DNA of 64,000 bases from Marinicauda algicola. GTDB lineage: Bacteria; Pseudomonadota; Alphaproteobacteria; Caulobacterales; Maricaulaceae. Under the pieces are notes generated by a model, which saw only the letters and a program-made list of their open reading frames with translations, did not search any database and was not told the origin of the DNA. The stretch lies in contig NZ_CP071057.1 of NCBI RefSeq assembly GCF_017161425.1, positions 1,116,001 through 1,180,000 of the forward strand, read 5' to 3'. The translations under genes and the position numbers were made by a program. How positions within the stretch are numbered: position 1 is the stretch's first letter; every line of letters starts with the position of its first letter. This document shows positions 3,170-63,613 of this stretch, piece after piece.

Positions 3170-4993
<1,824 letters not shown>

Positions 4994-5007
4994 GACGCCT
5001 TCTTCGC

Positions 5008-5030: not shown

Positions 5031-5048
5031 GGGGGATCGGAAGGGGTA

Positions 5049-7513: not shown

Positions 7514-7630
7514 CGGCAGGACTCTTCACGCAAGGAGGCTGGCGGACCAGCTTGGCACTGAAAACAGCGCCTTCCTAGCGCGAAGCGGCGCACGACGCCA
7601 CGCCCGCCTCGCAGGCGGTGGGCCCCGGGT

Positions 7631-10680: not shown

Positions 10681-11588
10681 GCCTCAGCGTCCTCATCCCG
10701 ACCTTCCGGCGGCCGGACGGGCTGTCGCGCGCCCTCGTCAGCGTCTTCGCCCAGACCCGCGCGCCGGACGAGATCGTCGTCGTGGACAATGCGCCCGAAG
10801 GCGGGGCCAGGGCAGTCATCGACGCGCTCGCGCCGCGCTCGCCGGCGGGGATCGTCCACGTCCACGAGCCCTCGCCCGGTGTCGCCAATGCCCGCAATGC
10901 CGGCTTCGCCGCAGCCAGGGGCCGCCATATCGCCCAGCTCGACGATGACGAGAGCGCCTCGCCCGACTGGCTGCAGCGCCTGATGGAAACGCGCGAGCGC
11001 CTCGATGCGCCCGTCGTGTTCGGCCCCGTCGCGGCCCAGGCGCCGCAAGCCGGCGCGCTGCGCCGGGCCTACGTCACGCGCCTCTATTCACGGTCGGGGC
11101 CGGGCGCCGACAGCGTGCTGACCAAGCCGTATGGCTGCGGCAATTCCCTCATCGACCGGGCCGCGGCGCCGCTGCCGGCCGAACCGTTCGACCCGGCGAC
11201 CAACGAGACCGGCGGGGAAGACGACCTCCTGTTCGCACGCCTTGCCGCCCGCGGCACCCGCTTCGCCTGGTCGGCGCGCGCACATGTGGTCGAGCATGTC
11301 GATCCGCGCCGCGCGCGCTGGGCCTATCTGATGGCGCGCAGCTTCGCCTATGGCCAGGGCCCGAGCCAGGCCTGCGTGACCGGTGAGCGGGTCCGCCCCC
11401 TCAGGCTCGCGGCCTGGATGGGGATCGGCGCAGCGCAGATGGCCGTGTTCGGCGCGGCCGCCCTGCCCGCACGCCTCGCCGGCGCGGAGGCTGCGGCCGC
11501 CTGCCTGGACCGCGCCGTCCAGGGGGCTGGCAAGGTGCTCTGGATGGATGCCTTCGGGCCGCGCTTCTACGGTGCGGCTCACGCCTGA
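10677..11588 (+). CDS. hfsL: Family 2 glycosyltransferase, HfsL-like
   Basis: A 303-aa GT2 enzyme with SLSVLIPTFRRP at the start, VVVDNAPEGG, NARNAGFAAARG and the metal-binding QLDDDESASP, followed by ETGGEDDLLFARL as the acceptor-site motif. It has one C-terminal hydrophobic segment. Third gene of the coupled G-H-L-like trio; it would add another sugar of the holdfast repeat unit. Its stop overlaps the convergent polymerase gene by 10 bp. Assignment to HfsL rather than another holdfast GT2 (for example HfsJ) is inference from position. Confidence 0.68.
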   Translation: MSLSVLIPTFRRPDGLSRALVSVFAQTRAPDEIVVVDNAPEGGARAVIDALAPRSPAGIVHVHEPSPGVANARNAGFAAARGRHIAQLDDDESASPDWLQRLMETRERLDAPVVFGPVAAQAPQAGALRRAYVTRLYSRSGPGADSVLTKPYGCGNSLIDRAAAPLPAEPFDPATNETGGEDDLLFARLAARGTRFAWSARAHVVEHVDPRRARWAYLMARSFAYGQGPSQACVTGERVRPLRLAAWMGIGAAQMAVFGAAALPARLAGAEAAAACLDRAVQGAGKVLWMDAFGPRFYGAAHA

Positions 11589-12832: not shown

Positions 12833-13440
12833 CCGTCCGTCCCCGGCGCGCGGTTGACGACGATCCCGAGAACTCGCCCGCCCGCGGATTCGATGCGGTC
12901 GGCGAGCTCCTCCGCCTCGTCGCGGCGGGTCCGCTCGGCGTCGCCGACGAGGATCACGCCGTCGAGATCGCCGGCGATGGCGGTGGCGGCCGGGCTGCCG
13001 GCCGGGACGTCGACAAGCGCCAGCGCGCAGGCGGCCCGGACCCGGTCCCAATAGGCGGGCGCCGAGGTGAAGACGACCCGGCGCAGGGTCTCGGGGCGGC
13101 GCTCGAAGACCGAAACGAGCACCGGCGCGGTCTCCACCTTGCGCAGGATGAGACGGGCCGATCCTTCCGGGTCGGCGCGCCAGAAGGGTTCGGTCCCGAA
13201 ATCGGCGTCGTAGGCGGCGCCGTTGAGCCGCGTGCGTCCGGCCTGGGTGTTGGCCGCGAAGTCGAGATCGTAGAGCCAGACGGGACGCCCGCTTTCGCGC
13301 GACGCATTGGCGGCGAGCCGGGCGCTGACCCAGGAGGCACCGGCCCCGGCGCGGACCGGCATGATCATGACGGCGCGCCCGCGCTCCCCGCGCGCGACGA
13401 GACGGCGCGACAGATCCTGCAATTGCGCGCAAACGGTCAT
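12829..13440 (-). CDS. hfsB: BY-kinase-like P-loop protein lacking the Walker A lysine, HfsB-like
   Basis: A 203-aa cytoplasmic protein with the fold order of CpsD/CapB partner ATPases. The P-loop region reads PVRAGAGASW instead of GxGxGK[S/T], so the nucleotide-gripping lysine is absent. The Walker A' strand is VWLYDLDFAAN and the Walker B strand is ALVDVPAG. There is no tyrosine cluster at the C terminus, so it is unlikely to be an active tyrosine autokinase. It follows the Wzz-like gene by 57 bp and overlaps the polymerase gene, so it probably regulates or scaffolds the HfsA co-polymerase. Confidence 0.65.
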   Translation of the reverse strand: MTVCAQLQDLSRRLVARGERGRAVMIMPVRAGAGASWVSARLAANASRESGRPVWLYDLDFAANTQAGRTRLNGAAYDADFGTEPFWRADPEGSARLILRKVETAPVLVSVFERRPETLRRVVFTSAPAYWDRVRAACALALVDVPAGSPAATAIAGDLDGVILVGDAERTRRDEAEELADRIESAGGRVLGIVVNRAPGTDG

Positions 13441-13497
13441 GAGCCGGACTCCCTGGAGACCGAACCTAGCCCGGCGAGGGTTAACGATGGGCTGACG

Positions 13498-14991
13498 CTA
13501 CTGGCGCCCGACGCGAGCGAGGACGGGCAGCGGGTCGCGCCTCGGTGCCGGGTGCGCTGACTGGCGCGCAGCGCGAGCGCCCGCGCCGCCCGGATCGGGG
13601 GCATGCGGAGGCGGCGAGCGGCGCGGCGCCGGGTCGCGCCAGTCCTGCGCATAGCCGACGAGCAGGCCGAGAAGTCCCGCGAGACCCAGCGCGAACACGC
13701 CTGCGCCAGCGATCGCGATCTTGCGCAGCGACTTGGCTTCCGCAGGCGTTTCGGCGCGCTCCACGATCCGCACGGCATCGGCCGCGTCGCCCGACCCTGC
13801 GGCCTGGGCGACCGCGTTCGCGCTCTGCTCGGACAGGCGTTCGGCAGCGGTCTCGGCCGCGCTCACCTCCCGGCGAAGGCGATCGTGGGCCGGTGCGAGG
13901 GCGCGCAGCCGGTCGGCCTCCGCACGCGCGTCGGCAAGCTGGCGGCGCAGCATGGCGGCAAGCCTGCGCTGCGCTGCGGCTGCCCCGGCCTGCTGCAGGC
14001 GCGCGGTCTCGAGCTCCTGGTAGACCGGATTAGCGCCGGTCCGCCTCTGCCCCGCGCCCTGCGCGCCTCCGGCGTCGATGAAGTCGCGCAGCGCCGCGAT
14101 CTCGCGCTCGATCGCGACGACCGGCGGCGCGTCGGGCAGATAGCGCGCAAGCAGCTCGCGGCGGCGTACCTCGAGGGTCAGGAGCTGGCCGGTCACGTCG
14201 TTCTCGACATAGTGCTCGATCGTCTGGGGTATCTCGGTCAGGCGCGCCTCGATCGCGGCGGCGCCGGCCGCGGCGGCCTCGGCTTCGGCCTCGGCCAGCA
14301 GCAAGCGGGTCTGCAGGTCGGTCACGCGCGCGACTGCCGCGGCCTGCTCGGCCTCGAAATCGACGAGGCCGTGATCGTTGAGGAAGGCCCGCAGCTCGCC
14401 GGCCGCTTCCTGCGCCACGATCTCGGCGCGGGCGAGCCGCGCCCTGAGCTGACCGGCGCCGTCCTCGACGAGCACTTCCTGGCGGTAGTCGAGATAGGCC
14501 TCCACGATCGCGTTGAGCACCGTGGCGGCGAGTTCGGGATCGTCGGACTCGTAGGTCGCCGTAATCACGCTCGCATTGGGCGCGCGCGAGACCGAGAAAC
14601 CCGAGCGCAGGCGTCGCAGCGCGGCCGACGTCGGCTCGGCGCCGCGGCGTTCGATCGCGCGCCGGCGCACGGCATCGGAATCGAGGATCTCGATCTCGGA
14701 CTGCAGCACCTGGTCGAGCACGAAGGCCCCGCCCGAGCCGGCCGCACCCGGGGTCGGGTCATCCTCGTCGAGCAGGACCAGCAGGCGCGTCTCGGCCTCG
14801 TAGGTGGGGGTGAGCAGCGTGTAGGCGGCGATTGCGCCGGGAATGAAAAGCGCAAGAAAAACCAGGATGATGAGAAATTTCTGCGTCCACACGATCGCAG
14901 CCAGGTCGAACAGGTCGATCTCCCGGCGGCCATGGGCCGGCGGGGCGGATCGTCCCGGCCCGGAATCGTGAAAGTCGCTCATCACGCCCAT
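13498..14991 (-). CDS. hfsA: Wzz-type polysaccharide co-polymerase / chain-length determinant, HfsA-like
   Basis: A 497-aa inner-membrane protein. The N-terminal transmembrane helix is at about residues 35-58, with the LTPTYEAETRLLV motif typical of Wzz proteins just after it. A long Ala/Arg/Glu-rich coiled coil fills about residues 160-400, a second transmembrane helix is near 413-437, and the tail is proline-rich. It controls polymer length and bridges the inner membrane to the Wza-like exporter. It heads the A-B-C strand-run and is divergent from hfsD. A second in-frame ATG at 14982 is an equally possible start; neither has a strong Shine-Dalgarno. Confidence 0.8.
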   Translation of the reverse strand: MGVMSDFHDSGPGRSAPPAHGRREIDLFDLAAIVWTQKFLIILVFLALFIPGAIAAYTLLTPTYEAETRLLVLLDEDDPTPGAAGSGGAFVLDQVLQSEIEILDSDAVRRRAIERRGAEPTSAALRRLRSGFSVSRAPNASVITATYESDDPELAATVLNAIVEAYLDYRQEVLVEDGAGQLRARLARAEIVAQEAAGELRAFLNDHGLVDFEAEQAAAVARVTDLQTRLLLAEAEAEAAAAGAAAIEARLTEIPQTIEHYVENDVTGQLLTLEVRRRELLARYLPDAPPVVAIEREIAALRDFIDAGGAQGAGQRRTGANPVYQELETARLQQAGAAAAQRRLAAMLRRQLADARAEADRLRALAPAHDRLRREVSAAETAAERLSEQSANAVAQAAGSGDAADAVRIVERAETPAEAKSLRKIAIAGAGVFALGLAGLLGLLVGYAQDWRDPAPRRSPPPHAPDPGGAGARAARQSAHPAPRRDPLPVLARVGRQ

Positions 14992-50070: not shown

Positions 50071-51312
50071 ATGCCCGACAGCATCCCCATCCCGCAGAGT
50101 GTGAGCAGCCTGTTCGGGGTCGCGCTCGTGCTCCTCATCGCGTTCCTGCTGTCCACCAACAAGCGCGCGATCAGCCTGCGCGTCGTGGCGAGCGCCTTCG
50201 CCCTGCAGCTCGCCTTCGCCGTCATCGTGCTCTACCTGCCGCCCGGCCGGGCCGCGCTGGCAACGGCGGCGCGCGGGGTGAACCAGCTGCTCGAATACGC
50301 CGGGGCGGGCATCGCCATGGTGTTCGGCCCGCTCGAAGGGGTGGGCTTCAGCTTCGCCCTGCACGTGCTGCCGGTGATCATCTTCTTCGCCGCGCTGATG
50401 AGCGTGCTCTACCACGTCGGAATCATGCCGCGGCTCGTGGCCGGCTTCGGCTGGCTGCTGAACCGGCTGCTCGGCACCGGCCGGGTGGAGAGCCTGAATG
50501 CGGCGGCGAACATCTTCGTCGGCCAGACCGAGGCGCCCCTGACGGTGAAGCCCTACCTGCCCAAGGTCACCCAGCCGCAGCTCTTCGCGATCATGACCTC
50601 GGGCCTGGCCTCGGTCGCCGGCTCGGTGCTCGCCGGCTACGCCCAGCTCGGCATCTCGGTGGAATACCTGCTCGCGGCGAGCTTCATGTCCGCGCCGGGC
50701 GGGCTCCTGATGGCCAAGATCATCATGCCCGACGAGAAGGGCGCGCCGGCAGAGCCCCAGGACCTCATCAAGATCAAGCCCGACGACGGCCGCCATGCCA
50801 ATGTCATCATGGCCGCAGCCATGGGCGCCAAGGACGGTCTGTGGCTGGCGCTCAACGTGGGCGCCATGCTGATCGCCTTCGTCTCGCTGATCGCGCTTCT
50901 GAACGGCCTGCTCGGCTGGGCGGGCGGGTTCGCGGGGCTGGATGGCCTGACGATCCAGACCATTCTGGGCTACCTGTTCTCGCCGCTCATGTACGCCCTC
51001 GGCATCCCGGTCGAGGAGGTGGTGCGCGCCGGGGGAATCCTCGGCGAGAAGGTCATCGTCAACGAGTTCGTGGCGTTCATCTCGCTGTCCGGGACGATGG
51101 AGGAGTTCTCCCCGCGTACCCAGGCGATCCTGACCTTCGCGCTGTGCGGCTTCGCCAACCTGTCCTCGATCGGCATCCTGCTCGGCGGGCTCGGCAGCCT
51201 GATCCCCGAGCGCATGAGCCAGATCGCGCGCTTCGGCCTGCTCGCCGTCGCCGCGGGCACGCTGTCGAACCTGATGAGCGCGGCGCTCGCCGGGCTTCTC
51301 TTCATTCCCTAG
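50071..51312 (+). CDS. Concentrative nucleoside transporter (NupC family)
   Basis: 413 aa with about 8-10 transmembrane segments. CNT hallmarks: [15 protein letters not shown] in the core helix, and [31 protein letters not shown] near the end. [11 protein letters not shown]-like sequence ([18 protein letters not shown]) is the substrate and Na+/H+ binding region. GAGAGG before the ATG. First gene of a nucleoside salvage operon, so it imports purine or pyrimidine nucleosides for the hydrolase downstream. Confidence 0.93.
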
Positions 51313-51325
51313 AGACCTGCCCCCG

Positions 51326-52267
51326 ATGGACAAGCACCGCGTCATCTTCGATTGCGATCCGGGCGTCGACGACGCCATCTCGCTGCTGACCGCGATGGCA
51401 TCCCCGGAGGCGATCGAGATCCTCGCCATCACCACGGTCGGGGGCAATGTTCCGCTGGAGACGGTGACGCGCAATGCCTGCGCCCTGCGCAGCTTCGCCG
51501 GACGCCGGGACGTGCGCGTCTTCGCGGGCTGTCCGCGTCCGCTCGTGAAGCCGCCCGTGTTCGCCGATCACGTCCACGGCGAGGCCGGGCTCGGGGCCGG
51601 CACGCTCGCGCCCTGCGATCTGCCGGCGGAGACCCGGCACGGCGTCGACGTCATCATCGAGACGCTGCGCGGCGCGCCGGACGCCTCGGTCACGCTGGTG
51701 CCGACCGGGCCCCTCACCAATATCGCGGTGGCGCTGGTGAAGGAGCCGAACATCGCCAGGGCCGTACGCGAGATCGTGCTGATGGGCGGGGCGCACCGCG
51801 AGGGCGGCAACATCACCGCCTCGGCCGAATTCAACATGAGCGTCGATCCCCACGCCGCCCACGTGGTCTTCGAATCGGGCTGCCCGATCGTCGCGGTCGG
51901 CCTCGACGCGACCTATCAGATGCGCATGACGCCGGCCCGGATGGAGCGCCTCGCGGCGATGGGAAGCGCGGCGGGACACTTCGTCCACGCCATGCTCGAG
52001 CACGTCAACGCAATCTATGCCGATCTCTACGGTGCGCAGGGCTGCGCGCTGCACGACCCGTGCACCGTCGGCTACCTGCTCGCGCCCCGGCTCTTCGAGA
52101 CACTCCCCTGCCGGATCGACGTGGAGACCGCCTCGCCGCTCACCGCCGGCCATACCGCGGTCGATTTCCATGCGCGCACGGGCCGGCCGGAGAATGCGCG
52201 CTGGGTGACCCGGCTCGATGCCGACGCCCTGTTCGCGCTCATCCTGGAAAGGCTCGCCCGGCTATGA
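51326..52267 (+). CDS. Nucleoside hydrolase (IUNH family)
   Basis: 313 aa. Ca2+-binding DCDPGVDDA at residues 8-16, then VPTGPLTNIAVAL, EFNMSVDPHAA and LHDPCTVGYLL (active-site His/Asp region). Hydrolyses imported nucleosides to base and ribose in the cytoplasm. Fourteen bases after nupC and overlapping the ribokinase start (ATGA), so ribose is passed on to ribokinase. Base preference not assignable by eye. Confidence 0.94.
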   Translation: MDKHRVIFDCDPGVDDAISLLTAMASPEAIEILAITTVGGNVPLETVTRNACALRSFAGRRDVRVFAGCPRPLVKPPVFADHVHGEAGLGAGTLAPCDLPAETRHGVDVIIETLRGAPDASVTLVPTGPLTNIAVALVKEPNIARAVREIVLMGGAHREGGNITASAEFNMSVDPHAAHVVFESGCPIVAVGLDATYQMRMTPARMERLAAMGSAAGHFVHAMLEHVNAIYADLYGAQGCALHDPCTVGYLLAPRLFETLPCRIDVETASPLTAGHTAVDFHARTGRPENARWVTRLDADALFALILERLARL

Positions 52268-53118
52268 GCGCGCCTAAGATCACCGTCGTCGGCTCGATCA
52301 ATCTCGATATCGTCGCACACGCCGACCGGCTGCCCTTGCCCGGCGAGACGGTGATGGGCGGCGCGCTCGCCCTCTATCCCGGCGGCAAGGGCGCGAACCA
52401 GGCCCTCGCCGCGCGCCGGCTCGGCGCCGAGGTGTCGATGATGGCCCGCGTCGGGCGCGACGCCCATGCCGGCCAGGCGCTCGCGCTCCTGCGCGCCGGC
52501 GGCGTCGATCTCTCCGGCGTCATCGAGGACGATCGCCACCCCACGGGCGTCGCGCTCATCGTCGTGAGTTCGGACGGGGAGAACCAGATCGTCGTCACGC
52601 CCGGCGCCAATGGCGCGCTCGCGCCGGAGGATGTCGATGCGATACCGGGCGCGGCGATCTGCCAGCTCGAGGTGCCGTTGGAGACCGTCGAGGCCGCCGC
52701 GCGGGCGTGCGAGGGCTTCCTCGCGCTGAACCTCGCCCCGGCAAGACCGGTGCCGGACACGCTGCTGACGCGCGCCGATCTCATCGTGGCCAACGAGAGC
52801 GAAGCTGCCTTCTACGGCCTCGACCGCCTGCTCGCGCCGGGCAAGCGCCTCGCCGTGACGCTCGGCGCGAGGGGCGCGGTGCTCTACTCCAGCGGGGTGG
52901 AACGCGCGCGCGCAACGCCGCCTGCGGTCACGCCCGTCGACACGACCGGGGCCGGCGACACGTTCGTGGCCGCCCTCACCCTCGCCCTGCTCGAAGGGCG
53001 CGCAGAGGCGGACGCCCTCGCCTTCGCGTGCGCCGCCGGCGCGGCGGCCACCCTGCACCACGGCGCGCAATCCTCCCTGCCTCGGCGCGAGGCGGTCGAG
53101 GACCTGATGCGCCGCTGA
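52264..53118 (+). CDS. rbsK: Ribokinase
   Basis: 284 aa PfkB-family kinase. N-terminal VGSINLDIVAHADRLPLPGET, GGKGANQALAARRLG, and the ATP/anion-hole motif DTTGAGDTFVAAL with the catalytic Asp. Phosphorylates ribose released by the nucleoside hydrolase. Start ATG overlaps the hydrolase stop. The C-terminal monovalent-cation loop region looks ordinary. Other PfkB sugar kinases are possible but the context strongly favours ribose. Confidence 0.93.
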   Translation: MSAPKITVVGSINLDIVAHADRLPLPGETVMGGALALYPGGKGANQALAARRLGAEVSMMARVGRDAHAGQALALLRAGGVDLSGVIEDDRHPTGVALIVVSSDGENQIVVTPGANGALAPEDVDAIPGAAICQLEVPLETVEAAARACEGFLALNLAPARPVPDTLLTRADLIVANESEAAFYGLDRLLAPGKRLAVTLGARGAVLYSSGVERARATPPAVTPVDTTGAGDTFVAALTLALLEGRAEADALAFACAAGAAATLHHGAQSSLPRREAVEDLMRR

Positions 53119-53137
53119 ACCCGGAACGGAGTCCGCG

Positions 53138-54049
53138 ATGTCCTCGATCCCCCGTTTCGATCTCCGCGAGTTCACCGGCGGCGGCGATGCCGCCCGGCGC
53201 GAGTTCGCCAGCGGGCTCGTGGCGGGGCTGAAGCGCTACGGCTTCATCGTCGTGTCAGGCCACGGTGTCCCGCAGGCGCTGATGGAGGACGCCTACCGCG
53301 CTTCGGCCGCATTCTTCGCCCTTCCCGAGGCGGAGAAGCGCCGCCATGCCGGCGCGCTGCGCGGCTACACCCCGTTCGGGATCGAGCACGCCAGGCAGTC
53401 CGACAAGCCCGACCTGAAGGAATTCTGGCAGATCGGCCACGAACCGGCCCCCGGCCTCACCGTGGAGCACCCCAATACCTGGCCCGAGCACCCGGCGGAG
53501 TTCCGCGCCACCTTCACAGCCCTGTTCGACGCCCTTTTCGACGCCGGAGGCTCGCTGCTGTCCGCGATCGCGCTCGATTTCGGCCTCGAGGAGGAGTTCT
53601 TCGACGCGCGCATCGCCGGCGGCCAGTCGCTGCTGCGCCTGCTGCACTATCCCCCCGTGCCCGAGGGTACCGATCCGGGCTGCGTGCGCGCCGCGGCGCA
53701 CGAGGACATCAACCTCATCACCCTGCTGATCGCCGCGAACGGGGCCGGGCTCGAACTGCTCGACCGCGACGGGCGGTGGCTTCCGGTCGAGGCCGGGCGC
53801 GAGGACATCATCGTGGATACCGGCGACATGATGGCGCGGATCACCGGCGGCGTCCTGCCGGCGACCACGCACCGCGTGGTCAACCCGGCCGGGCCCAATG
53901 TCAGCCGCTACTCCATGCCCTTCTTCGTCCAGCCGCGCTCGGAGGTGCTGCTCGAACCCCTGCCCGGCTGCCGGTCCGACGCCGAGCCGATCACCGCCGG
54001 CGAGTACCTGAACCAGCGCCTGAAGGAGATCGGCCTGCCCGCGGCCTGA
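53138..54049 (+). CDS. Isopenicillin-N-synthase-family 2OG/Fe(II) oxygenase (copy 2)
   Basis: 303 aa, paralogue of 18638-19597. Iron ligands H188/D190 (HEDINLITLL) and H245 (TTHRVVNP), with R257/S259 (SRYSMPFF) for 2-oxoglutarate. It starts 19 bp after the ribokinase stop with GGAG upstream, so it is the fourth gene of the nucleoside operon. An oxygenase in this setting could act on a nucleobase or nucleoside; this is inference. It is convergent with the SLC13 transporter gene. Confidence 0.88.
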   Translation: MSSIPRFDLREFTGGGDAARREFASGLVAGLKRYGFIVVSGHGVPQALMEDAYRASAAFFALPEAEKRRHAGALRGYTPFGIEHARQSDKPDLKEFWQIGHEPAPGLTVEHPNTWPEHPAEFRATFTALFDALFDAGGSLLSAIALDFGLEEEFFDARIAGGQSLLRLLHYPPVPEGTDPGCVRAAAHEDINLITLLIAANGAGLELLDRDGRWLPVEAGREDIIVDTGDMMARITGGVLPATTHRVVNPAGPNVSRYSMPFFVQPRSEVLLEPLPGCRSDAEPITAGEYLNQRLKEIGLPAA

Positions 54050-54088: not shown

Positions 54089-55561
54089 CTACCAGGCGCT
54101 CCCGAACACGGCCGGCGCGATCACCAGGGCGACGAGGCTCAACACCGCGACGGCGACCACGTTCAACGCCAACCCTGCTCGCGCCATTGTTGGAATCGGT
54201 ACCAGCCCGGAGCTGAACACCACCGCATTGGGCGGCGTGGCGACGGGCAGCATGAAGGCGCAGCTCGCGGCGAGCGTCACGGGAATGACGTAGATCAGCG
54301 GATCGGCTCCGGTCTCCACGCCGATCGCGGCGATTACCGGCAGGAAGGTCGCGGTGGTGGCCAGGTTGCTCGTCAGCTCGGTCAGGAAGATGACGAGGGT
54401 CGTGGCGGCCACGATGAGCAGAATCGTGTTCACCGAGCCGAGCCCTGCGAGTTGCTGGCCCAGCCACAAGGCGAGGCCCGAGCTGGTGATCGCGGAGGCG
54501 AGCGCCAGCCCGCCGCCGAACAGGATGAGCACGCCCCAGGGCAGCCGGCCCATCGCGTCCCAGGTCATAAGCGCCTCGCCCTTTCGTCCGGACGGGATGA
54601 GAAAGGCCGCCACCGCCGCGGTCATCGCCACGCCGGTGTCGCTCACCTCGCCCAGGAAGGGCAGGTCGTCGAGCCAGTCGCGGGTGAGCCAGCCGACCAC
54701 GAGGAAGACGAACAGCAGACCGGTGCGCATCTCGGCCTTGCTCATGGCGCCCAGGCTCTTGCGCATCGTCCGGATGTGACGAAGCGCTTCCTCCGAGGCT
54801 CGGAAATCGATGGGAAACAGCACGCGCGTCAGAAGGAACCACGCCAGGGGCAGCAGGACGAGCGATACGGGGAGCCCCACAAGCATCCAGCGTGCGAAAT
54901 CGATCTCCACCCCGTAATTGTCGGCCATGAAGCCTGCCATGAAGGCGTTGGGCGGCGTACCCACCAGGGTCGCCAGCCCGCCGAGCGTGGCGCCGTAGGC
55001 CAGCCCCAGCAACAGCGACACGCCGAAATTGTCTCGCTGCTTCAGGGAGAGGCCCGGCATCGTCTCGCCGATCACCGTCACGACGGACACCGCGATGGGC
55101 AGCAGCATGAGCGCCGTCGACGTATTCGAGATCCACATGCTCACGAAGGCCGCCGCCGCCATGAAGCCCGCGACGAGCGCGCGCGCATCGGCCCCGACGA
55201 GGGCGAAGACCCCGAGCGCGATGCGCCTGTGAAGCCCGCAACGCTCTATCGCCAGGGCGATCACGAACCCTCCGAAGAAGAGATAGATGATCGGATGAGC
55301 GTAGGGCGCGGCGATCTCGCCCACTGTCGTCACCCCGAGAATGGGCAGAGCGACCAGCGGCAGGAAGGCCGTCACCGCTACCGGGATCGCCTCGGTCGCC
55401 CACCAGATGGCCATGAGCAGGCCCACTGCGGCGACCAGAGCCGCCTCGCGCGGCAACCCTTCCGGCGAGAAGCCGGCGAGCACCGCAAGGGCAGCGGCAG
55501 GGCCAAGATACAATCCGACGCGCTGGTAGAGCGCCGGGCGGTCGTCGGTTTTCGTCGTCAT
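54089..55561 (-). CDS. DASS/SLC13-family sodium:dicarboxylate-type symporter
   Basis: 490 aa, about 11-12 membrane helices. Both Na+/substrate-clamshell SNT motifs are present: SNTSTALMLLPIAVSV in the first half and SNLATTATFLPVIAAIG in the second, with TPPNAF and TPPNAV nearby. The DASS group carries succinate, fumarate, malate or sulfate. Seventeen bases separate it from the hydrolase gene upstream, so TonB receptor, hydrolase and this carrier read as one operon. It would be the inner-membrane importer of that locus. Confidence 0.9.
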   Translation of the reverse strand: MTTKTDDRPALYQRVGLYLGPAAALAVLAGFSPEGLPREAALVAAVGLLMAIWWATEAIPVAVTAFLPLVALPILGVTTVGEIAAPYAHPIIYLFFGGFVIALAIERCGLHRRIALGVFALVGADARALVAGFMAAAAFVSMWISNTSTALMLLPIAVSVVTVIGETMPGLSLKQRDNFGVSLLLGLAYGATLGGLATLVGTPPNAFMAGFMADNYGVEIDFARWMLVGLPVSLVLLPLAWFLLTRVLFPIDFRASEEALRHIRTMRKSLGAMSKAEMRTGLLFVFLVVGWLTRDWLDDLPFLGEVSDTGVAMTAAVAAFLIPSGRKGEALMTWDAMGRLPWGVLILFGGGLALASAITSSGLALWLGQQLAGLGSVNTILLIVAATTLVIFLTELTSNLATTATFLPVIAAIGVETGADPLIYVIPVTLAASCAFMLPVATPPNAVVFSSGLVPIPTMARAGLALNVVAVAVLSLVALVIAPAVFGSAW

Positions 55562-55578
55562 GCGATCCGTCTGTCGAT

Positions 55579-56442
55579 TCAGGGTTGAGCCGGCGGTCGG
55601 ACGGCGAGAGCGTTGATGTGCGCGGCGGCCGCCTCGGCCATACCGGCATTGTCGTGTGCGACCCCGGCAACCGTTACGAGTCGCCAGGCCAGTGGCGCGT
55701 CCATGGCGGCGGCCCGGGTCCGGGCGGCATCGAGGAAGTTCAACCCGCGTGCATAGCGGTTCGGCCCCTGGGCGTCGGCCTCGGCAGTGCGTCTCAGGTG
55801 ACGATGCTCCGGGTCGTCATCCTCCTCGCCGAGCAGGATCACCAGTGGAGCGGCCAACCAGGCGCGCTCCGCCTCCTCCGTCACCGGAGCGCCGCCCAGC
55901 CCGTATGGCCAGGGCGTCCCAGGATCGGGAAAGGTGTACCAGCCCGCGTTCGCGGCGTAGGCCGTGCGCAGGCGCGGCAGGTCCTCGAGCAACACGGCGC
56001 GGTGGACGGCTTGCGCGCCGGCGGAATGGCCGAACAGATGATAACCCTCGGGCGCGCCGCCGCGCGCAGCGATCGCGTCGAAAAGCGGCTCGAGCGCAGT
56101 GAACGCGTAAGGGCCCTCCGTGCCCGCTCCGCCAAGATTGTACATGGCCGCGCCGGGAAACGCCTCGGCGGAAAACGCCGGTGCGTAGATGCGAAGGCCG
56201 AGGGCGCCGGCCGGCCCGGCCCAGTTGTCGCGATACGCATCCGCGTTCCGGTCCACGCCGTGTAGTACGATGACCACAGGCGCATCCGGGAACCGCGCCG
56301 GGTCGGGCTCGGCGTAGAAGACTTCGAGGGTCGGCCCGTCCCAGCCGGAAAACGCGAACCGGCCCGTGGCCGGCGGCTTGGCCAGGGAAGAAGCGGGCAG
56401 GAACGCGGCAGCGCAGAGGGAAATCGTCAGGAAGCGGAGCAT
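55579..56442 (-). CDS. Secreted alpha/beta hydrolase (PHB-depolymerase/feruloyl-esterase-like)
   Basis: 287 aa. Signal peptide of about 21 residues (LTISLCAAAFLPASSLA). VVIVLHGVDRNADAYRDNW holds the oxyanion region; nucleophile Ser in FGHSAGAQ; candidate acid in LGEEDDDPEHRH and His in VAGVAHDNAG. Periplasmic or exported serine hydrolase, possibly an esterase. A strong hairpin separates it from the TonB receptor gene upstream. ATG at 56442 starts the signal peptide; longer in-frame upstream sequence is not expected to be used. Confidence 0.85.
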   Translation of the reverse strand: MLRFLTISLCAAAFLPASSLAKPPATGRFAFSGWDGPTLEVFYAEPDPARFPDAPVVIVLHGVDRNADAYRDNWAGPAGALGLRIYAPAFSAEAFPGAAMYNLGGAGTEGPYAFTALEPLFDAIAARGGAPEGYHLFGHSAGAQAVHRAVLLEDLPRLRTAYAANAGWYTFPDPGTPWPYGLGGAPVTEEAERAWLAAPLVILLGEEDDDPEHRHLRRTAEADAQGPNRYARGLNFLDAARTRAAAMDAPLAWRLVTVAGVAHDNAGMAEAAAAHINALAVRPPAQP

Positions 56443-56454
56443 GTCGGAAAGAGC

Positions 56455-56480
56455 GGAGGCGCCGCGCACGCGGCGCCTCC
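56455..56480 (-). terminator. Strong hairpin between TonB receptor and hydrolase genes
   Basis: GGAGGCGCCGCG and CGCGGCGCCTCC form a perfect 12-bp stem with a 2-nt spacer, 12 nt past the receptor stop on the minus strand; GCTCTTTCCGAC-ATG (hydrolase) follows. With only short T-runs it may be a partial terminator/attenuator or mRNA-stability element that keeps receptor levels above the downstream genes. Confidence 0.55.
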
Positions 56481-56491
56481 CTCTATTTTCC

Positions 56492-59400
56492 TCAGAAGTG
56501 CTTGCGCACGTCGAAATAGACCTGGCGGCCACGGATGCTGTGATAGGCCGCATCATAGCCGTTGGTCTCGTCGGCGAGGGGCGGATCCTCGTCGAAGATG
56601 TTGTTCGCACCGACCCGGACCTGGACGCCGTCGAGCGCCCCGGGCCTGTCGAACTCGTACTGGACGTAGGCGTTGGTCTGCGTCCACGCATCCACGATGA
56701 ACGGATCCCCGTTCGGATCGAGTCCCGCGCCGGTGTCGATGAACTCGCTGGTATAGTCCGCACGCACACCCGCACCGAAGCCGCTGTCGTGACGCCAGGT
56801 GAGCGTGGCGCCCACCCGCCACTCCGGCTGGCCGTCCTGACGGATGATCTCACCTTCCTGGGAAACCTCGATCTCGTTGGAGATCAGCCCGCTCTCCACG
56901 GCGTCGCGGATCTGCTCGGCGCCGGGCGACAGCGAGATAAAGTAGGTGTCCAGATAGGAGGCGTTCACCTTCAGGTCGAAGTCGCCGACCGGCGTGTCGT
57001 CGAACGCGTAGTAGAGCGCGTAGTCCCAGCCTTCGACGTCGATGTCCTCGTTGTTGTCGTAGGTGTCGCGGATGAACAGGATGTCGCCGGCCGGCGTGAG
57101 CCCGGCCGCGTTGAAGAAGGCGATCTCGTCCACGTTGGGCGTGTCGCGCACCACGTTCGGGTTGGACGAGCCCTGCAGGCGCAGGAGGTAATCCAGGCTG
57201 ATATGGTTCTCCGCTCCGAACACGCCGACCACGTCGCGGCGCTGGATTTCCCAGCGGTCGACCGTGACGGTGAGATTGTTCAGGAAGCTGAAACCGCCCT
57301 CGAACCCGCTCGGCTCGAAGACGAAGCCGTAGGTGATGTTGATGTCATCCTCCGGCCCGATGTCGTCGGCGACCGAACGGCGCTCGGTGCGGCCCTCGGT
57401 GTAGCCGACGCAGTCGGCGAAGGTCGCAAACGTGCCGTTGCGCACGCCGGCCTCGCAGAAATAGCTGTCCTCGCGCGCATTGGACCGGTCGACGCCTTCA
57501 TTGATCACGATGAGGTTCGGCGCCCGGAAGCCTTCCGAATAGGCGCCGCGGAACTTCAGTCCGTCGAACGGAACCCAGGCGGCGGCTATCCGCGGCTTGA
57601 TCCCGCTGCCGCCGAAGTCGGAGTAGTGCTCGTAACGGGCCGCGATCTGCACATCGAACGTCTCGACCAGCGGCACGTTCATGTCGGGGCCGACCAGGGG
57701 TATGGAAGCCTCGGCGAAGGCGGCGAACACCTCCCGAGAGCCGCTGGAGTCCGGGGTCGGGCTGGTGCCGTAGACGTCGGTCTCGCTCACTTCACCCGTC
57801 ACCGCGTCGGTGAAGGTGATGGTGCCGTCCAGGCGGGAATCGCGGTCCTCGTCATAGGCCTCGTAGCGCGCCTCGGCACCGCCCGCCAGGCCGATGAAAC
57901 CGCCGGGGAGGCTGAACACCTCGCCATTGCTGACCTTGAAGTCGGCGAGCGCCAGCTCGGCGGTGCTCTTGCGCACCACGTCGACCAGGAACGGCTCCAT
58001 CAGGCTGCGGTCGTTCGCGGTGGCGTCGCCAACCGAGGGATTGTCCGGATCTCCGCCGTTGAAAAGATTGTAGACGTTCGGCGTCTCGTTGAAGAGTGCC
58101 TGCTGGAACAGGGTGCGGGAGATCGAGTTGTTCTCCGTGTCCTCGGCATGGGAGCGGTTGTAGAGCACCGCGCTGTCCCAGTCCCAGCCGCTCTCGCCGA
58201 ACGTGCCGCGGGCGCCGCCCAGCGCACGCCACTGGGTGTTGACGATCTCGATGTCGCGGAAACCCACGTCGACGAAGCGGTAGCGCCCGGCGTCGGTGAA
58301 CACCGGCAGCCCGCTCGCGGGAACGTTGGTGAGGCCGGGCAGGCGGTTCGGGTTCGGCGTGCCGTCGGAGAAGGTCACCGGGCCGAACGGGTTCCAGTAG
58401 TAGTTCGCCGGAACCGAGATTCCGGTCGCCCCGATCCCGTTGCGCGGCTCGTTGGTCCCCCGGGTCTCCGCGTAATACAGCCCGAACTCGCCATACAAGC
58501 GCACGCCGTTGTCGAGGTCGTGATTGAGGAAGGCGAAGCCGTTGAAACGATCGCGATCGGAGATGATGGAGCGCTCATAGGCACCGTCGAAGCGCAGGTC
58601 ACGATCCTGGCTGCCGTCGTCGATGCAGAGATTTGCGACCGAGAGCGCGCCGGCGGTGTCGGCCCGGCAGCCCGGAAAGGTCGCCGGCTGGAAGTGGAAC
58701 ACGCCCGAGGGTGTCGTGAGGGTCACCCCGTTCTGCCGCACGCGCGTGGAGGAGGTCGTGTTCAGCGTCCACTGGCCCCAGGGGGTCTGGGTGGCGCGGT
58801 TGTCGAAGGATACGTCGCCTTCGAAGCTCGTCCCGACCAGGAACGGCCTCAGATCCTCGCTCGCCGAGCGCTCGAGTTCCGAGGCGAACAGCCCGTCCCG
58901 GCGCGAATACTCGGCCGAGAAGGACAGGTTCGTCCGGCCGCCGTTGAAGGAATCGCCGGCCCGCACCGTCAGGGTCTGTTCGTCCAGTCCGTTGCCGGTG
59001 GCGTAGAGATGGCGGCCAAGGATTTCGAATCCCGAGAAATCGTCGTCGAGAATGGTGTTGAACACCCCAGCGACCGCGTCCGAGCCGTAGATGGCCGAGG
59101 CGCCGTCGTTGAACACCTCGACCCGGGAGATGCCCGCGACGGGAAGTGCGTTCACGTTCGTCGTCGTGACCGGCGTGGACAGTTCGGCCTGGGTCGAGGG
59201 GTGGTTGACCACCCGGCGGCCGTTCAGAAGCACCAGCGTACCGCTGGACCCGATCGATCGCAGGTTGATCGAGGCGATGTCGCCGCGCGCGTTGTTGTTG
59301 GTGGTGTTGTTGTCGCCACGGAAGGCGACGCCGCCCTGGGAGGGCAGCGCGCGTATCAGATCCTCACCGTCCACCCCGCCGATCGAGGCGAGATCGTCCT

Positions 59401-59599
59401 GGTTGATGATCGTCACGGGCAGCGACTCGTTGATCCGGGCGCCCTGGATGTTCGTACCCGTAACGACGATGACGTCGCGTGTTTCTTCCTGCACAGCGGA
59501 AGCCTGCGTGGTCTCGGCCACCTCTTGCGCCAGCGCTGTCTGACCCAGCGCAAGCACGCTGAGCGCCACTCCCGATTTCAAAAAGCTGCGAACCGACAT
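56492..59599 (-). CDS. TonB-dependent outer-membrane receptor
   Basis: 1035 aa. Signal peptide to about residue 25 (ending ALAQ). The plug domain has the TonB-box-like RDVIVVTGTNIQ, SLPVTIINQDDL and RSIGSSGTLVLLNGRRV. The barrel follows and ends in the conserved C-terminal Phe (VYFDVRKHF). Of the type that takes up oligosaccharides, peptides or other complex solutes rather than clear siderophore types. GGGGGAGG before the ATG at 59599. It is divergent from the tandem TetR operon. Substrate not readable from sequence. Confidence 0.94.
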   Translation of the reverse strand: MSVRSFLKSGVALSVLALGQTALAQEVAETTQASAVQEETRDVIVVTGTNIQGARINESLPVTIINQDDLASIGGVDGEDLIRALPSQGGVAFRGDNNTTNNNARGDIASINLRSIGSSGTLVLLNGRRVVNHPSTQAELSTPVTTTNVNALPVAGISRVEVFNDGASAIYGSDAVAGVFNTILDDDFSGFEILGRHLYATGNGLDEQTLTVRAGDSFNGGRTNLSFSAEYSRRDGLFASELERSASEDLRPFLVGTSFEGDVSFDNRATQTPWGQWTLNTTSSTRVRQNGVTLTTPSGVFHFQPATFPGCRADTAGALSVANLCIDDGSQDRDLRFDGAYERSIISDRDRFNGFAFLNHDLDNGVRLYGEFGLYYAETRGTNEPRNGIGATGISVPANYYWNPFGPVTFSDGTPNPNRLPGLTNVPASGLPVFTDAGRYRFVDVGFRDIEIVNTQWRALGGARGTFGESGWDWDSAVLYNRSHAEDTENNSISRTLFQQALFNETPNVYNLFNGGDPDNPSVGDATANDRSLMEPFLVDVVRKSTAELALADFKVSNGEVFSLPGGFIGLAGGAEARYEAYDEDRDSRLDGTITFTDAVTGEVSETDVYGTSPTPDSSGSREVFAAFAEASIPLVGPDMNVPLVETFDVQIAARYEHYSDFGGSGIKPRIAAAWVPFDGLKFRGAYSEGFRAPNLIVINEGVDRSNAREDSYFCEAGVRNGTFATFADCVGYTEGRTERRSVADDIGPEDDINITYGFVFEPSGFEGGFSFLNNLTVTVDRWEIQRRDVVGVFGAENHISLDYLLRLQGSSNPNVVRDTPNVDEIAFFNAAGLTPAGDILFIRDTYDNNEDIDVEGWDYALYYAFDDTPVGDFDLKVNASYLDTYFISLSPGAEQIRDAVESGLISNEIEVSQEGEIIRQDGQPEWRVGATLTWRHDSGFGAGVRADYTSEFIDTGAGLDPNGDPFIVDAWTQTNAYVQYEFDRPGALDGVQVRVGANNIFDEDPPLADETNGYDAAYHSIRGRQVYFDVRKHF

Positions 59600-59772
59600 C
59601 TCGGCCTCCCCCGAATTTATTGGTTTTGTGACGGAAGCAATGCACCCAGACACTGTCAACAAAAAACATACACGCGGTTCAAATTTTTGACTTCAGCGGT
59701 TGCCAATTTGCGTCAATCCTGCTCGCATGGGGTGTGGCCGAACCAGTCCGCGCGAACGAGGGCGTAACCCAA
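59600..59772. promoter_or_regulatory. Divergent regulatory region, TonB receptor / tandem TetR
   Basis: A 173-bp AT-rich spacer. On the minus strand a TTGACA (59659-59654) could be the -35 of the receptor promoter; on the plus strand TTGACT (59687) is a candidate -35 for the regulator. Imperfect repeats (TTTTGTGAC and GTCAACAAAA) suggest an operator but are not clean. No gene fits here. Confidence 0.45.
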
Positions 59773-61083
59773 ATGTCGGTTCTAAAACCGCAATTTCCCG
59801 ATCACGGCTCGCCATTCTCCCGTGAACAGGCACGGCGAAGAAAGCTCGACGCCATCCTTTCTGCCGCGGCGAAGCGCTTCAACGAACAAGGCTTCGCCGA
59901 CACCCGCCTCGAGGATGTCGCGGCGGACCTGGGACTGACGAAGACCAGCATCTCCTATTATTTCGCGAGCAAGGAGGACCTCGCCGAGGCGGTGTTCCGG
60001 GAGGCATCCAGCTTCCTGCGCGACGCGGTCGCAGCGGCCCTCGATGCCCCCGGAGACGCCGGCGCACGAATCCTCGCCTTGTTTCGTGCCTATGCGTCAC
60101 AGCTTGACTCGGTGGCGCGCCGGGTTCGCGGACCTGTCGCCGCCCTGCGCGACCTGGATGCCCTGCCGGATGCGATCTGCGAGCAGATTGCAGGGGAGAT
60201 ATCCGGCTGCCTGGCCCAGATCACGCGGCTCGTGGCGGCCTGGAACGAGGAGAACGGGGCGCCGCTGGGTCGAGCCGAACCGGCGAGTTTCCTGATACTG
60301 GCCCTACTTGACTGGCTCGGCGAGCGCGGCAATCAACATCGCAGGGGCAGCGATATTCTCGCAGACTTGGATGTCCTCACCGACATCGTCGCAGGCGGCC
60401 TTCTCGCCAAACCGTTCGGATACCCGGCGCCTGTGCCGCTGAACCTCGGGTCGAACGAGACGCTGGCGATCTTCGACCGGGCGGCTCGCAACAGGATGAA
60501 GCGCGAAGCCTTTCTCAAGGCGGGATCCCGTCTGTTCAACCAGAAAGGCTTCGGCGGAACCTCCCTTGCCGAAGTCGCCTCCGTTCTCGGCGTCTCGCGC
60601 GGCGCGTTCTACTATCACATTGAGGACAAGGAGCAGTTCCTGGACCAGTGCCTCGAGCGTTCGCTGAACATCATCGAGCAGGCGCTCTCGGCCGTGGACG
60701 AGTCAGACCTTCCGCCTGCGGAGCAACTGCGCAGCGTCCTCGCCGAGCTGGTCTATCTCCAGGCAGCCGGAATCGAACCGCTTCTGCGTCCCGGCATGGC
60801 ATCGGTGCTTCCCGCGCCGCGCCGCCGACGTCACCTCACCCGCCTGCGCACGATCGCCCGACGGTTCGGCGATCTTCTTGCCGAGGGCGCCGAGACAGGC
60901 GAGCTGCGCCCGGTCGATCTCGGTCTCGCCGAGGACGTTCTCGCCAGCATCGTCTTCCTGAACGGGGGCTACACGCTCGCCGCAGCAGGAAGCGCGTCCA
61001 GCTGGAGCCTGTTCGAGGATGCCCGCAGCGCGACGACCGATTATCTGCACCTGCTGTTTCACGGCATCGGGAAGCGGCAATGA
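59773..61083 (+). CDS. Regulator with two TetR-type HTH domains in tandem
   Basis: About 436 aa, twice normal TetR length. The first TetR_N HTH is at about residues 22-72 (LSAAAKRFNEQGFADTRLEDV, LGLTKTSISYYFASKEDL), the second at about 242-292 (LKAGSRLFNQKGFGGTSLAEV, LGVSRGAFYYHIEDKEQF). Each is followed by an all-helical ligand domain. I start at ATG 59773 (GAGGG upstream) rather than a GTG at 59734. Divergent from the TonB receptor and overlapping the lyase start (ATGA), it likely controls both runs. Confidence 0.88.
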   Translation: MSVLKPQFPDHGSPFSREQARRRKLDAILSAAAKRFNEQGFADTRLEDVAADLGLTKTSISYYFASKEDLAEAVFREASSFLRDAVAAALDAPGDAGARILALFRAYASQLDSVARRVRGPVAALRDLDALPDAICEQIAGEISGCLAQITRLVAAWNEENGAPLGRAEPASFLILALLDWLGERGNQHRRGSDILADLDVLTDIVAGGLLAKPFGYPAPVPLNLGSNETLAIFDRAARNRMKREAFLKAGSRLFNQKGFGGTSLAEVASVLGVSRGAFYYHIEDKEQFLDQCLERSLNIIEQALSAVDESDLPPAEQLRSVLAELVYLQAAGIEPLLRPGMASVLPAPRRRRHLTRLRTIARRFGDLLAEGAETGELRPVDLGLAEDVLASIVFLNGGYTLAAAGSASSWSLFEDARSATTDYLHLLFHGIGKRQ

Positions 61084-62495
61084 GATCGGCCCTCGCCGCC
61101 CTGCTCGCGATCGTCGGGTTCTGCGGGCTCGCGCCGGCCGAGGCGCAGCCGGCACCTGAACCGATCTCCGGTCAGGAGATCGCGCAGGTCTTCTCTCAGG
61201 AAAGCCTCAATGGCCACGTGCTTCGCATCGAGGCGGCACTGGCGCGATCCCAGGCGGCGGAAGGCGTCATTCCCCGGGATGCGGCCGATGCGATCACGCG
61301 CGCAGCGGTTCCGGCGAGCGTGCCGCCGGACGAACTCGCCGCGGAATACGAGATCGTGCGTCACCGGATGGTTGCCCTGCTCAACGTGCTGAGCCGCGCC
61401 ATGGACGAGGAGGACGCGGCCTGGCTTCACTACGGGGCGACCACCGTCGACATCTACGACACGGCGCTGATGCTGCAATTGCGCGACGCCGTGCTGTATC
61501 TGATCGAGGATCTTCGCACGCTGGAACTGCAGCTCGTCGCGCTGGCGGAGCTCCATCGGGCGACTCCCATGATCGGTCGCACGCTCGGCCAGCACGCTCT
61601 TCCGATCACGTTCGGAAAGAAGCTCAGCGTCTGGATTGGCGAGAACCGGCGCCATATCGACCGGCTCGACGATCTTCTGGAACGGATCGAACGTTCCGCG
61701 ATCCTCAAGGGCGCGGTGGGCAGCTATCTCGGCCTCGGGCCGGAGGCCATCGCGGTGGAGCGGCGCTTCGCCGGTGAACTGGGACTGGCCGCACCGTATG
61801 AGGACGACTGGCACGCCGCCCGTGACGTGATCGCCGAATACGCGCTCGTCTGCGGACTCATCGCGCGATCCTGGGGCCGGTTCGGACAGGAAGTGTTTCT
61901 CCTGCAGTCCACCGATATCGGCGAGATCGCCGAGCGCCGCCCGGCCTCGGCGGTCGATTCGAGCGCGATGCCCCACAAGTCGAACCCGTTCCTTTCGGAG
62001 GCGCTGATCCATGGCGGCCGGGTCATCCCCCGTCAGGCCGAGACGGTCGCAGACGATGTGGTCAACTTCTTCGAGCGCGACAACACCTCGCGGCCGAACG
62101 CGCTGATCGAGACACTCTCGATCGAGACCGAGGCCCAGCTACGCAACGCCAGCCAGCTCATCGACCGGCTCGAAATCTATCCCGAGCGCATGCGGGCGAA
62201 TCTCGATCGCACGAACGGATGGATCCTTGCCCAGCGGGTCGTCTTCGCGCTCGCCGGGCACATGGGCCGCCCCGAGGCCGAGCATCGCATGCGGGATCTG
62301 GCCGATGATGCGCGCCTGAGCGGCGCGAGCCTTGCCGACTCCCTCGCGGCGGATCCGCAGATATCGGCCCTGCTGTCACAGGATGAGCGCGCGCAGCTCC
62401 TCGACCCGACGACGTATATCGGGCTGGCGGCCGAGCAGACCGACGCGGTGATCGCCGCGGCGCTGGCCGCGCGTGCCCGGGATCGACTTCCGTGA
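61080..62495 (+). CDS. Signal-peptide-bearing aspartase/fumarase-superfamily lyase
   Basis: 471 aa. Residues 1-23 are a clear signal peptide (AIVGFCGLAPAEA). The mature enzyme has the three superfamily regions: GATTVDIYDTA (119-129), RTLGQHALPITFG (167-179) and the signature SS-loop SSAMPHKSNP (294-303) with the catalytic Ser. Closest look is the 3-carboxymuconate cycloisomerase/adenylosuccinate-lyase group; in region two the usual RTH reads RTL. Such enzymes cleave C-N or C-O bonds releasing fumarate or cyclise muconates. Secretion is exceptional. Coupled on both sides by ATGA and GTGA overlaps. Confidence 0.85.
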   Translation: MRSALAALLAIVGFCGLAPAEAQPAPEPISGQEIAQVFSQESLNGHVLRIEAALARSQAAEGVIPRDAADAITRAAVPASVPPDELAAEYEIVRHRMVALLNVLSRAMDEEDAAWLHYGATTVDIYDTALMLQLRDAVLYLIEDLRTLELQLVALAELHRATPMIGRTLGQHALPITFGKKLSVWIGENRRHIDRLDDLLERIERSAILKGAVGSYLGLGPEAIAVERRFAGELGLAAPYEDDWHAARDVIAEYALVCGLIARSWGRFGQEVFLLQSTDIGEIAERRPASAVDSSAMPHKSNPFLSEALIHGGRVIPRQAETVADDVVNFFERDNTSRPNALIETLSIETEAQLRNASQLIDRLEIYPERMRANLDRTNGWILAQRVVFALAGHMGRPEAEHRMRDLADDARLSGASLADSLAADPQISALLSQDERAQLLDPTTYIGLAAEQTDAVIAAALAARARDRLP

Positions 62496-63613
62496 GACCC
62501 GGCGCCATCGCCTTGCTTCTGCTGGCAGGGTGCGCCCTGCCGCCCGCGCCGGCGAGTTGCCTGGACGGCGACGTCCGGCTCACGGCGGACATGCCCGGGG
62601 CGCCCGCCTCGCCCTGCACGCGGATATCCGGATCCGAGTTCCGTCTCGATATCCTGCCCGAGGCCGAGCCCATCAATCCGAGCCCTTGGTACGCCTTCGC
62701 GATCGACAGCGGAATCCATACCCGCACCCTGGTGACGCTGGACTACGCCGCGGCCGGCCATCGCTACGCGCCCTGGGTGAGCCGGGATGGCGCACGCTGG
62801 ACGAGGCTAGAGCCCGCATCCGTCTCGATCGAGGAAGACGGGAGCGCAGCGCGCCTGGACCTCGTCCTCGCCCCCGGCCGCCTCATGGTCGCCGCGCAGC
62901 CTCCCTATGGCGGTGACGCGTATCATGCGCTCGAGATGCGCTGGGCGGGCGACTGGCGCACGATCGGGTCGAGCACGCAGGCGCGCCCGGTGCGCGCGCT
63001 CATCGCGCCGCCGGCCGACCCCGAGGCGGGATGGATTCTCATGCTCGGCCGTCAGCATCCGCCGGAAATTCCCGGCGCCTGGGCGTTCGAAGCCTTCGCC
63101 GACGAGATGCTTCGCCGATATGGCGCGGGCGAACTGCGCGCCGGGCTCATCCTCGTTCCGCTGCTGAATCCTGACGGTGTCGCTCATGGCCACTGGCGGC
63201 TGACCGGGGCGGGTGTCGACCTGAACCGGGACTGGGCGGCACGCGCCCAGCCGGAAGTCGCAGCGGTATTCGACCTGCTCAATGCGACGGGTATCGAGCC
63301 GGGCGATCTGGAGCTGGTGGTCGATTTCCACGCCACGCGCTCCGACCGGCTCTACCTGCCCCAGCCCGAAGAGCTGCCGGCCGGACCGAACGCGGCCCTG
63401 GAGGCGTGGCTGGGCGCGATGGCCTCCGCGGGGCTGTTCGAGCGGATCGAGCCCGTGCGCACCGATCCCGCTCTGCGGGTCAGTGCGAAGGCCGTCTTCA
63501 CGGACCTTTGGCAGGCGCCGGCCCTGACCTGGGAGGCCGGCGACGAGACACCCGAGGACGAGGTGCGAGAAAGTGCGCGCAGGGCCGCCGCGCTGTGGAC
63601 CGGATCGGAGTAG
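62492..63613 (+). CDS. M14-family metallocarboxypeptidase lipoprotein
   Basis: 373 aa. GTG start overlapping the lyase TGA. Signal with lipobox LAGC (Cys14). Beta-rich N-terminal domain as in cytosolic carboxypeptidase-like M14 proteins, then zinc ligands H189 and E192 (GRQHPPEIPG), NPDG at 226-229, substrate N245/R246 in VDLNRDW, third ligand H280 (VDFHATRSD) and catalytic Glu348 (TWEAGDET). A periplasm-facing zinc carboxypeptidase that would trim amide-linked residues in the same compartment as the lyase. Confidence 0.87.
   Translation: MRPGAIALLLLAGCALPPAPASCLDGDVRLTADMPGAPASPCTRISGSEFRLDILPEAEPINPSPWYAFAIDSGIHTRTLVTLDYAAAGHRYAPWVSRDGARWTRLEPASVSIEEDGSAARLDLVLAPGRLMVAAQPPYGGDAYHALEMRWAGDWRTIGSSTQARPVRALIAPPADPEAGWILMLGRQHPPEIPGAWAFEAFADEMLRRYGAGELRAGLILVPLLNPDGVAHGHWRLTGAGVDLNRDWAARAQPEVAAVFDLLNATGIEPGDLELVVDFHATRSDRLYLPQPEELPAGPNAALEAWLGAMASAGLFERIEPVRTDPALRVSAKAVFTDLWQAPALTWEAGDETPEDEVRESARRAAALWTGSE

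Follow-up and report, generated by a model that had tools for sequence, protein, structure and literature searches.

The window analysed here is a 64,000 nt stretch of the Marinicauda algicola genome (positions 1,116,001 to 1,180,000 of NZ_CP071057.1; the genome is a single contig of 3.42 Mb), and between its positions 54,089 and 63,613 lie six genes encoding an outer membrane receptor, two secreted hydrolases, an exported lyase, a carrier and a regulator. On the strength of sequence comparisons, we tentatively propose that these genes serve the TonB-dependent uptake and subsequent cleavage of acidic compounds of aspartate type. The compounds in question would most likely be aspartyl peptides or oligomers that are beta-linked, racemised or both, a reading we hold to be plausible without giving it quite an even chance. 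All six open reading frames are intact, with their families backed by Pfam and NCBIfam models:

54089..55561, minus strand: DASS/SLC13 sodium-coupled dicarboxylate-type carrier (490 amino acids (aa); TIGR00785, Na_sulph_symp)
55579..56442, minus strand: predicted secreted alpha/beta hydrolase of the PahZ1 clade (287 aa; match to 6ve6)
56492..59599, minus strand: TonB-dependent outer-membrane receptor (1035 aa; Pfam Plug and TonB_dep_Rec)
59630..59682, no strand assigned: candidate control element, a block within the divergent promoter region that is conserved in a six-locus alignment
59773..61083, plus strand: double-TetR regulator (436 aa; two TetR_N domains)
61080..62495, plus strand: exported PurB/PcaB-like lyase (471 aa including the signal sequence; Lyase_1 and ADSL_C; Ser295 in SSxMPxKxNP)
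62492..63613, plus strand: M14 metallocarboxypeptidase lipoprotein (373 aa; Pfam Peptidase_M14, lipobox LAGC)

The minus-strand run is compact, with 17 bases between the carrier and hydrolase genes and 49 between those of the hydrolase and receptor; on the plus strand, an ATGA overlap joins the regulator and lyase genes and a GTGA overlap joins the lyase and M14 genes. Coordinates and overlaps are all as given in an earlier reading of this DNA, made from the sequence alone (the sequence-only reading).

Confinement to close strains would have told against the sequence-only reading; in fact, the gene set is conserved far beyond them. A single scan of GTDB species genomes detected relatives of the lyase, 43-73% identical to it if one fragment is left aside, at 72 further loci in alpha- and gammaproteobacteria, including Maricaulis, Hyphomonas, Hyphomicrobium, Erythrobacter, Microbulbifer, SAR92 and SAR86 (bins of metagenome-assembled genomes (MAGs) that carry the labels Gemmatimonadota and Acidobacteria may have been misassigned); in the same order as the window, 20 of 398 genomes had one. 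Homology-supported gene calls around 75 lyase loci place the receptor cluster at 45 of them, DASS carriers at 36, the hydrolase at 30 and M14 proteins at 27. The genes for the receptor, hydrolase, DASS carrier, M14 protein and lyase follow one another on one strand in G056, Henriciella (L056) and L061. The neighbourhoods (around 10 kb) of 51 long lyase loci were compared with those of 20 canonical PurB loci from the same order. A DASS or SDF carrier was found at 34 of the former and none of the latter (Fisher p 8e-8), or near 32 of 33 long lyase loci once those of SAR86 and Porticoccaceae type were set aside; receptors accompanied 31 of 51 lyase genes but only 2 of 20 purB genes, and amide hydrolases 29 of 51 against 0 of 20. 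As none of the PurB neighbourhoods contains the carriers or hydrolases, the association exceeds that expected by chance. Such p-values are rough, because related loci are not independent samples; it counts for more that the association recurs in both alpha- and gammaproteobacteria, under differing gene orders and regulators (double TetR, LysR or ECF/FecR). Hence the conservation and these controls bear out the proposal that receptor, secreted hydrolases, exported lyase and C4-dicarboxylate carrier constitute one uptake-and-cleavage unit.

The lyase matches the Pfam families Lyase_1 and ADSL_C, yet lies below all NCBIfam cut-offs. Its highest score is to the XcbD 3-sulfopropionylcysteine synthase model NF052536 (312.9 bits, cut-off 600), with lower scores to models of PurB (TIGR00928, 264.5 against 326.2) and PcaB (PRK09053, 296.9 against 595; TIGR02426, 223.6 against 355.75), and far lower scores to aspartate ammonia-lyase (38.4 against 510) and class II fumarase (31.2 against 664.75). 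An AlphaFold model (pLDDT 87) has the superfamily fold, with a Z score of about 35 against PurB structures; the nearest structures are fumarate lyase 3c8t, PcaB 1re5, trans-aconitate decarboxylase and PurB. In a phylogenetic tree, the lyase and its relatives form a clade distinct from canonical PurB, PcaB-type and solved proteins (SH-aLRT 100), and the source genome also encodes its own PurB (L175). Class-level matches scoring near 340 bits were rejected as clade members, being of ordinary PcaB/fumarate-lyase type (motifs GRTH... and TTQD). By these tests the protein is neither PurB nor PcaB. It had been assigned from sequence to the aspartase/fumarase superfamily, which is correct for the fold and the catalytic loop, but its nearest relatives are in the PurB/PcaB/fumarate-lyase branch rather than among aspartases or class II fumarases.

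Within the SSxMPxKxNP loop, S294, S295, M297, K300 and N302 are invariant across the clade, which is distinguished by H95, V123, K180 and K210. The succinyl-binding motifs are retained, H95 is common to the lyase and PurB, and the invariant additional residues K180, K210 and H95 could bind further carboxylates. The site of the general-acid His is occupied by Leu, Ile or Arg; in the window, the position equivalent to the THL motif is L169, unlike the arrangement in aspartases and fumarases. Nearly all of the roughly 70 clade members, those of SAR86 included, have a signal-like hydrophobic N terminus or a lipobox, as judged from sequence and hydropathy rather than by a dedicated predictor. A cytoplasmic protein unrelated to its neighbours would have refuted the sequence-only reading; instead, an export signal is present and the neighbours are kept. 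The lyase is thus taken to be an exported, probably active enzyme that still binds a succinyl or fumarate unit. In one SAR86 genome the lyase gene is split and apparently frameshifted (L099, 9926-11319).

The PurB-like fold might be taken to indicate purine or nucleoside salvage, with the lyase cleaving succinyladenosine, and genes fitting such a role do lie upstream on the plus strand: a NupC nucleoside carrier, a nucleoside hydrolase (IUNH), a ribokinase and a 2-oxoglutarate-Fe(II) oxygenase occupy positions 50071-54049 consecutively. This run is a ribonucleoside salvage operon; however, it converges on the DASS gene, such that the whole minus-strand run of carrier, hydrolase and receptor genes intervenes, and none of the other loci has NupC, IUNH or ribokinase genes close to the lyase. 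The His usual in PurB is also absent from the lyase. The link was consequently rejected, and we regard this explanation as highly improbable.

A closer guide to the substrate is the hydrolase, the best PDB match of which is poly(aspartic acid) hydrolase-1, PahZ1 (6ve6, E 2.1e-50), followed by 9o7u (E 1.9e-26). It is around 40% identical to the PahZ1 of Sphingomonas sp. KT-1, joins 6ve6 in a single clade (SH-aLRT 98) and retains the GHSAG motif and C-terminal His. PahZ1 is an amidase: the Pedobacter sp. KP-2 enzyme cleaves beta-Asp amides, accepts both D and L units, releases D-Asp and leaves Asp dimers uncut (PMC4456602). With this enzyme as its closest solved relative, the window hydrolase may cleave beta-Asp amide bonds. 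The gene and fold family of a secreted alpha/beta hydrolase had been recognised from the sequence alone, though this named relative was overlooked, and the role of esterase then suggested finds no support in it. The PahZ1 clade takes in all eight hydrolases of receptor loci without a lyase and only four solitary genes, most solitary relatives falling outside it. Furthermore, every sampled genome in which the lyase was found also has a PahZ1-like gene: 2 of 2 among 385 genomes of the class (18 of which have a PahZ1-like gene) and again 2 of 2 among 200 genomes of one family (base rate 15 of 200), the two samples having one lyase genome in common; in G796 the two genes are on separate contigs. 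A Pseudomonadales MAG has a truncated PahZ1-like gene between those for the lyase and a gamma-glutamyltransferase (GGT; L052, 1727-1999).

Among more distant members of the hydrolase family is LpqC (3d0k), a putative polyester depolymerase, raising the prospect that the locus serves the use of polymalate or malyl esters; the hydrolase would then release malate as an esterase, whilst the lyase would eliminate fumarate from an O-acyl-malate end. A carboxylate leaving group could dispense with the general acid, and the dicarboxylate carrier DctA is present in loci lacking the lyase as well. This is nevertheless quite unlikely, given that PahZ1 is itself an amidase (PMC4456602) and that the other enzymes recurring at these loci all act on amides or amino acids. 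One of them is the M14 protein (31.1 bits to Pfam Peptidase_M14, cut-off 21.6), in which H189, E192, H280 and E348, the zinc ligands and catalytic Glu, are invariant. No PDB chain named PahZ2 turned up with the M14 proteins, and a likeness to PahZ2 is not claimed. Others are specific to certain lineages: loci in Erythrobacter add a lipoprotein resembling N-acyl-D-amino-acid deacylase (D-aminoacylase) and a D-amino-acid dehydrogenase, and those in gammaproteobacteria add GGT or an M28 peptidase. Together, the PahZ1 clade, the D-amino-acid enzymes and GGT or M28 speak for acidic aspartyl material that is joined by amide bonds and partly of D configuration. The sequence-only reading had envisaged import and cleavage of a conjugate, for example one of N- or O-succinyl type or a peptide-linked one. 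The single unit is supported; as for its substrate, the PahZ1 relative and the D-amino-acid and isopeptide enzymes make aspartyl peptides or polymers no less likely than an N- or O-succinyl conjugate.

GGT adjoins the lyase in six loci, which would suit salvage of S-(2-succino)cysteine or succinated glutathione, with GGT and peptidases freeing S-succinocysteine for periplasmic cleavage to fumarate and cysteine. The highest NCBIfam score, though far under its cut-off, is to XcbD, which joins cysteine to an acrylate, and a thiolate leaving group could do without the absent general acid. However, most loci, including that in the window, have no GGT, and the PahZ1-type hydrolase, D-aminoacylase and D-amino-acid dehydrogenase would go unexplained, making this an improbable account.

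The transporters are informative as to the products. The window carrier is a member of the DASS family (290.6 bits to TIGR00785, cut-off 198.6; Na_sulph_symp also matched), although its SNT and SNL motifs do not discriminate C4-dicarboxylates from sulfate or citrate. In several Hyphomicrobium loci, which hold the lyase, a hydrolase and a recurring gene for an uncharacterised protein that is possibly a porin (c27), the carrier is instead a true DctA by both its model score (618.8 bits, cut-off 513) and its binding motif, therefore making a C4-dicarboxylate product likely. DASS adjoins the lyase in most Erythrobacter loci, many of which add an SDF carrier with the GltPh motif MDMMRT...NVTGD, which we take to be of acidic-amino-acid type. 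The carriers thus point to a C4-dicarboxylate, likely fumarate, from the lyase and an acidic amino acid from the hydrolases. The receptor has Plug (51.5 bits, cut-off 23.9) and beta-barrel (62.7, cut-off 27) domains above the Pfam cut-offs, and its orthologues at Maricaulis-type lyase loci are 77-84% identical, as against 52-73% for the lyase; among the proteins of the cluster it ranks first or close to first in conservation, which is unusual for a receptor and suggests one fixed ligand. Orthologues of the double-TetR protein, with 31-66% identity, are encoded at 17 lyase loci. Between the divergent runs, the block at 59630-59682 (TGTCAAC, AAAA, ATACAC, GGTTCAA) is kept across six aligned loci whilst the flanking bases have diverged, making it a candidate promoter or TetR site; a promoter scan found nothing.

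The step order, the aspartyl substrate, fumarate as product and the regulation we infer as follows. The receptor would take aspartyl peptides or oligomers into the periplasm, where the PahZ1-type hydrolase and M14 carboxypeptidase would shorten the chains. As PahZ1 cannot cut beta-Asp dimers and frees D-Asp, a further activity is needed; the exported lyase would beta-eliminate fumarate from the N-substituted aspartate unit left by the hydrolases, the DASS (or DctA) carrier would bring in the C4 acid, and the double-TetR protein would control both divergent operons. A bolder version, by analogy, has the lyase cleaving aspartyl amide (isopeptide) bonds themselves by beta-elimination, for instance converting beta-aspartyl-aspartate to asparagine and fumarate and so finishing the dimers that resist PahZ1; elimination from the amide of phosphoribosylaminoimidazole succinocarboxamide (SAICAR) by PurB is a chemical precedent. 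That marine bacteria should degrade acidic polymers by such a pathway, with a lyase acting on peptide bonds, is in our estimation rather unlikely.

Several observations weigh against the proposed aspartyl uptake locus. With the general-acid His replaced, the leaving group of the lyase reaction is uncertain. The substrate for which PahZ1 is known, thermal polyaspartate, is synthetic, and the Hyphomicrobium hydrolases lie outside the PahZ1 clade. Carriers are absent from 17 of the 51 long loci, and the lyases of some SAR86 and Porticoccaceae genomes are without these neighbours. Sphingomonad loci without the lyase comprise the receptor, a PahZ1-like gene, mostly an M14 gene and in some cases DctA; their carriers are of this type and not the expected aspartate-type SDF, weakening the rule that a lyase means a dicarboxylate carrier, and the presence of DctA without the lyase means that a carrier is no proof that the lyase makes its cargo. 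From these versions, the lyase can be seen to be an add-on to loci of this kind. At seven SAR86 loci (L069, L070, L084, L089, L090, L094 and L097), the lyase gene is beside PhzF-like and oxidoreductase-like genes, with no carrier or receptor of the system nearby; L165 (G037), which lacks the lyase, has genes for a PahZ1-like protein, an aminotransferase, a beta-keto-acid-cleavage-like protein, LysR, a TonB receptor, M14 and a GGT lipoprotein at 3927-14449.

The same architecture could also serve a small substrate of the aminopolycarboxylate or succinyl-amino-acid type (iminodisuccinate, a compound resembling ethylenediaminedisuccinate (EDDS) or aspergillomarasmine, or N-succinyl amino acids), which the lyase would cleave directly to fumarate and an amino acid, the hydrolases only trimming conjugates. 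This explanation, nearest to the idea in the sequence-only reading, is unlikely but the most credible of the alternatives. Iminodisuccinate lyase, of the same superfamily, releases fumarate and an amine from an N-substituted aspartate; it and EDDS lyase, which is argininosuccinate-lyase-like, are cytoplasmic, and neither is known to occur alongside TonB receptors or peptidases. EDDS lyase likewise shows that superfamily members cleave such C-N bonds, yielding fumarate and amine (PMC12363623). H95, the succinyl-binding motifs and the adjoining C4-dicarboxylate carriers are all consistent with such a substrate; however, it leaves the recurrence of PahZ1-type, M14, GGT, M28 and D-aminoacylase genes, and the large receptor, unexplained.

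The proposed aspartyl uptake locus would work like other TonB-based nutrient utilisation loci, such as those for polysaccharides, in combining an outer-membrane receptor, surface or periplasmic cleavage, an inner-membrane carrier and local control, but has a fumarase-superfamily lyase, amide hydrolases and a dicarboxylate carrier, and no glycan genes. The lyase shares its fold, catalytic Ser loop and succinyl-binding motifs with PurB, PcaB, fumarate lyase 3c8t, trans-aconitate decarboxylase Tad1 and nitrosuccinate lyase CreD, from which it differs in being exported, in forming its own clade, in V123, K180 and K210, in the Leu, Ile or Arg replacing the general-acid His and in its linkage to uptake genes. 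PahZ1 has been reported as a thermal-polyaspartate enzyme, with no receptor, lyase or carrier locus in the papers found. The open-licence literature yielded no description of an exported, secreted or periplasmic PurB-like lyase, of succinocysteine or SAR86 lyases of this kind, or of a receptor/PahZ1/M14/lyase/DASS locus, which agrees with the original impression that no system of this composition had been described, whilst being no proof of absence.

The lyase genes define a branch of exported proteins within an enzyme family of central metabolism; it occurs in ocean bacteria, SAR86 among them, and its members are likely to be mis-annotated as adenylosuccinate lyase. Enzymes that have been met only as degraders of synthetic polyaspartate may have their natural place in this locus. 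If so, polyaspartate hydrolases, hitherto tied to a man-made biodegradable polymer, would gain a genetic context in nature, and racemised or beta-linked aspartyl material a concrete recycling route.

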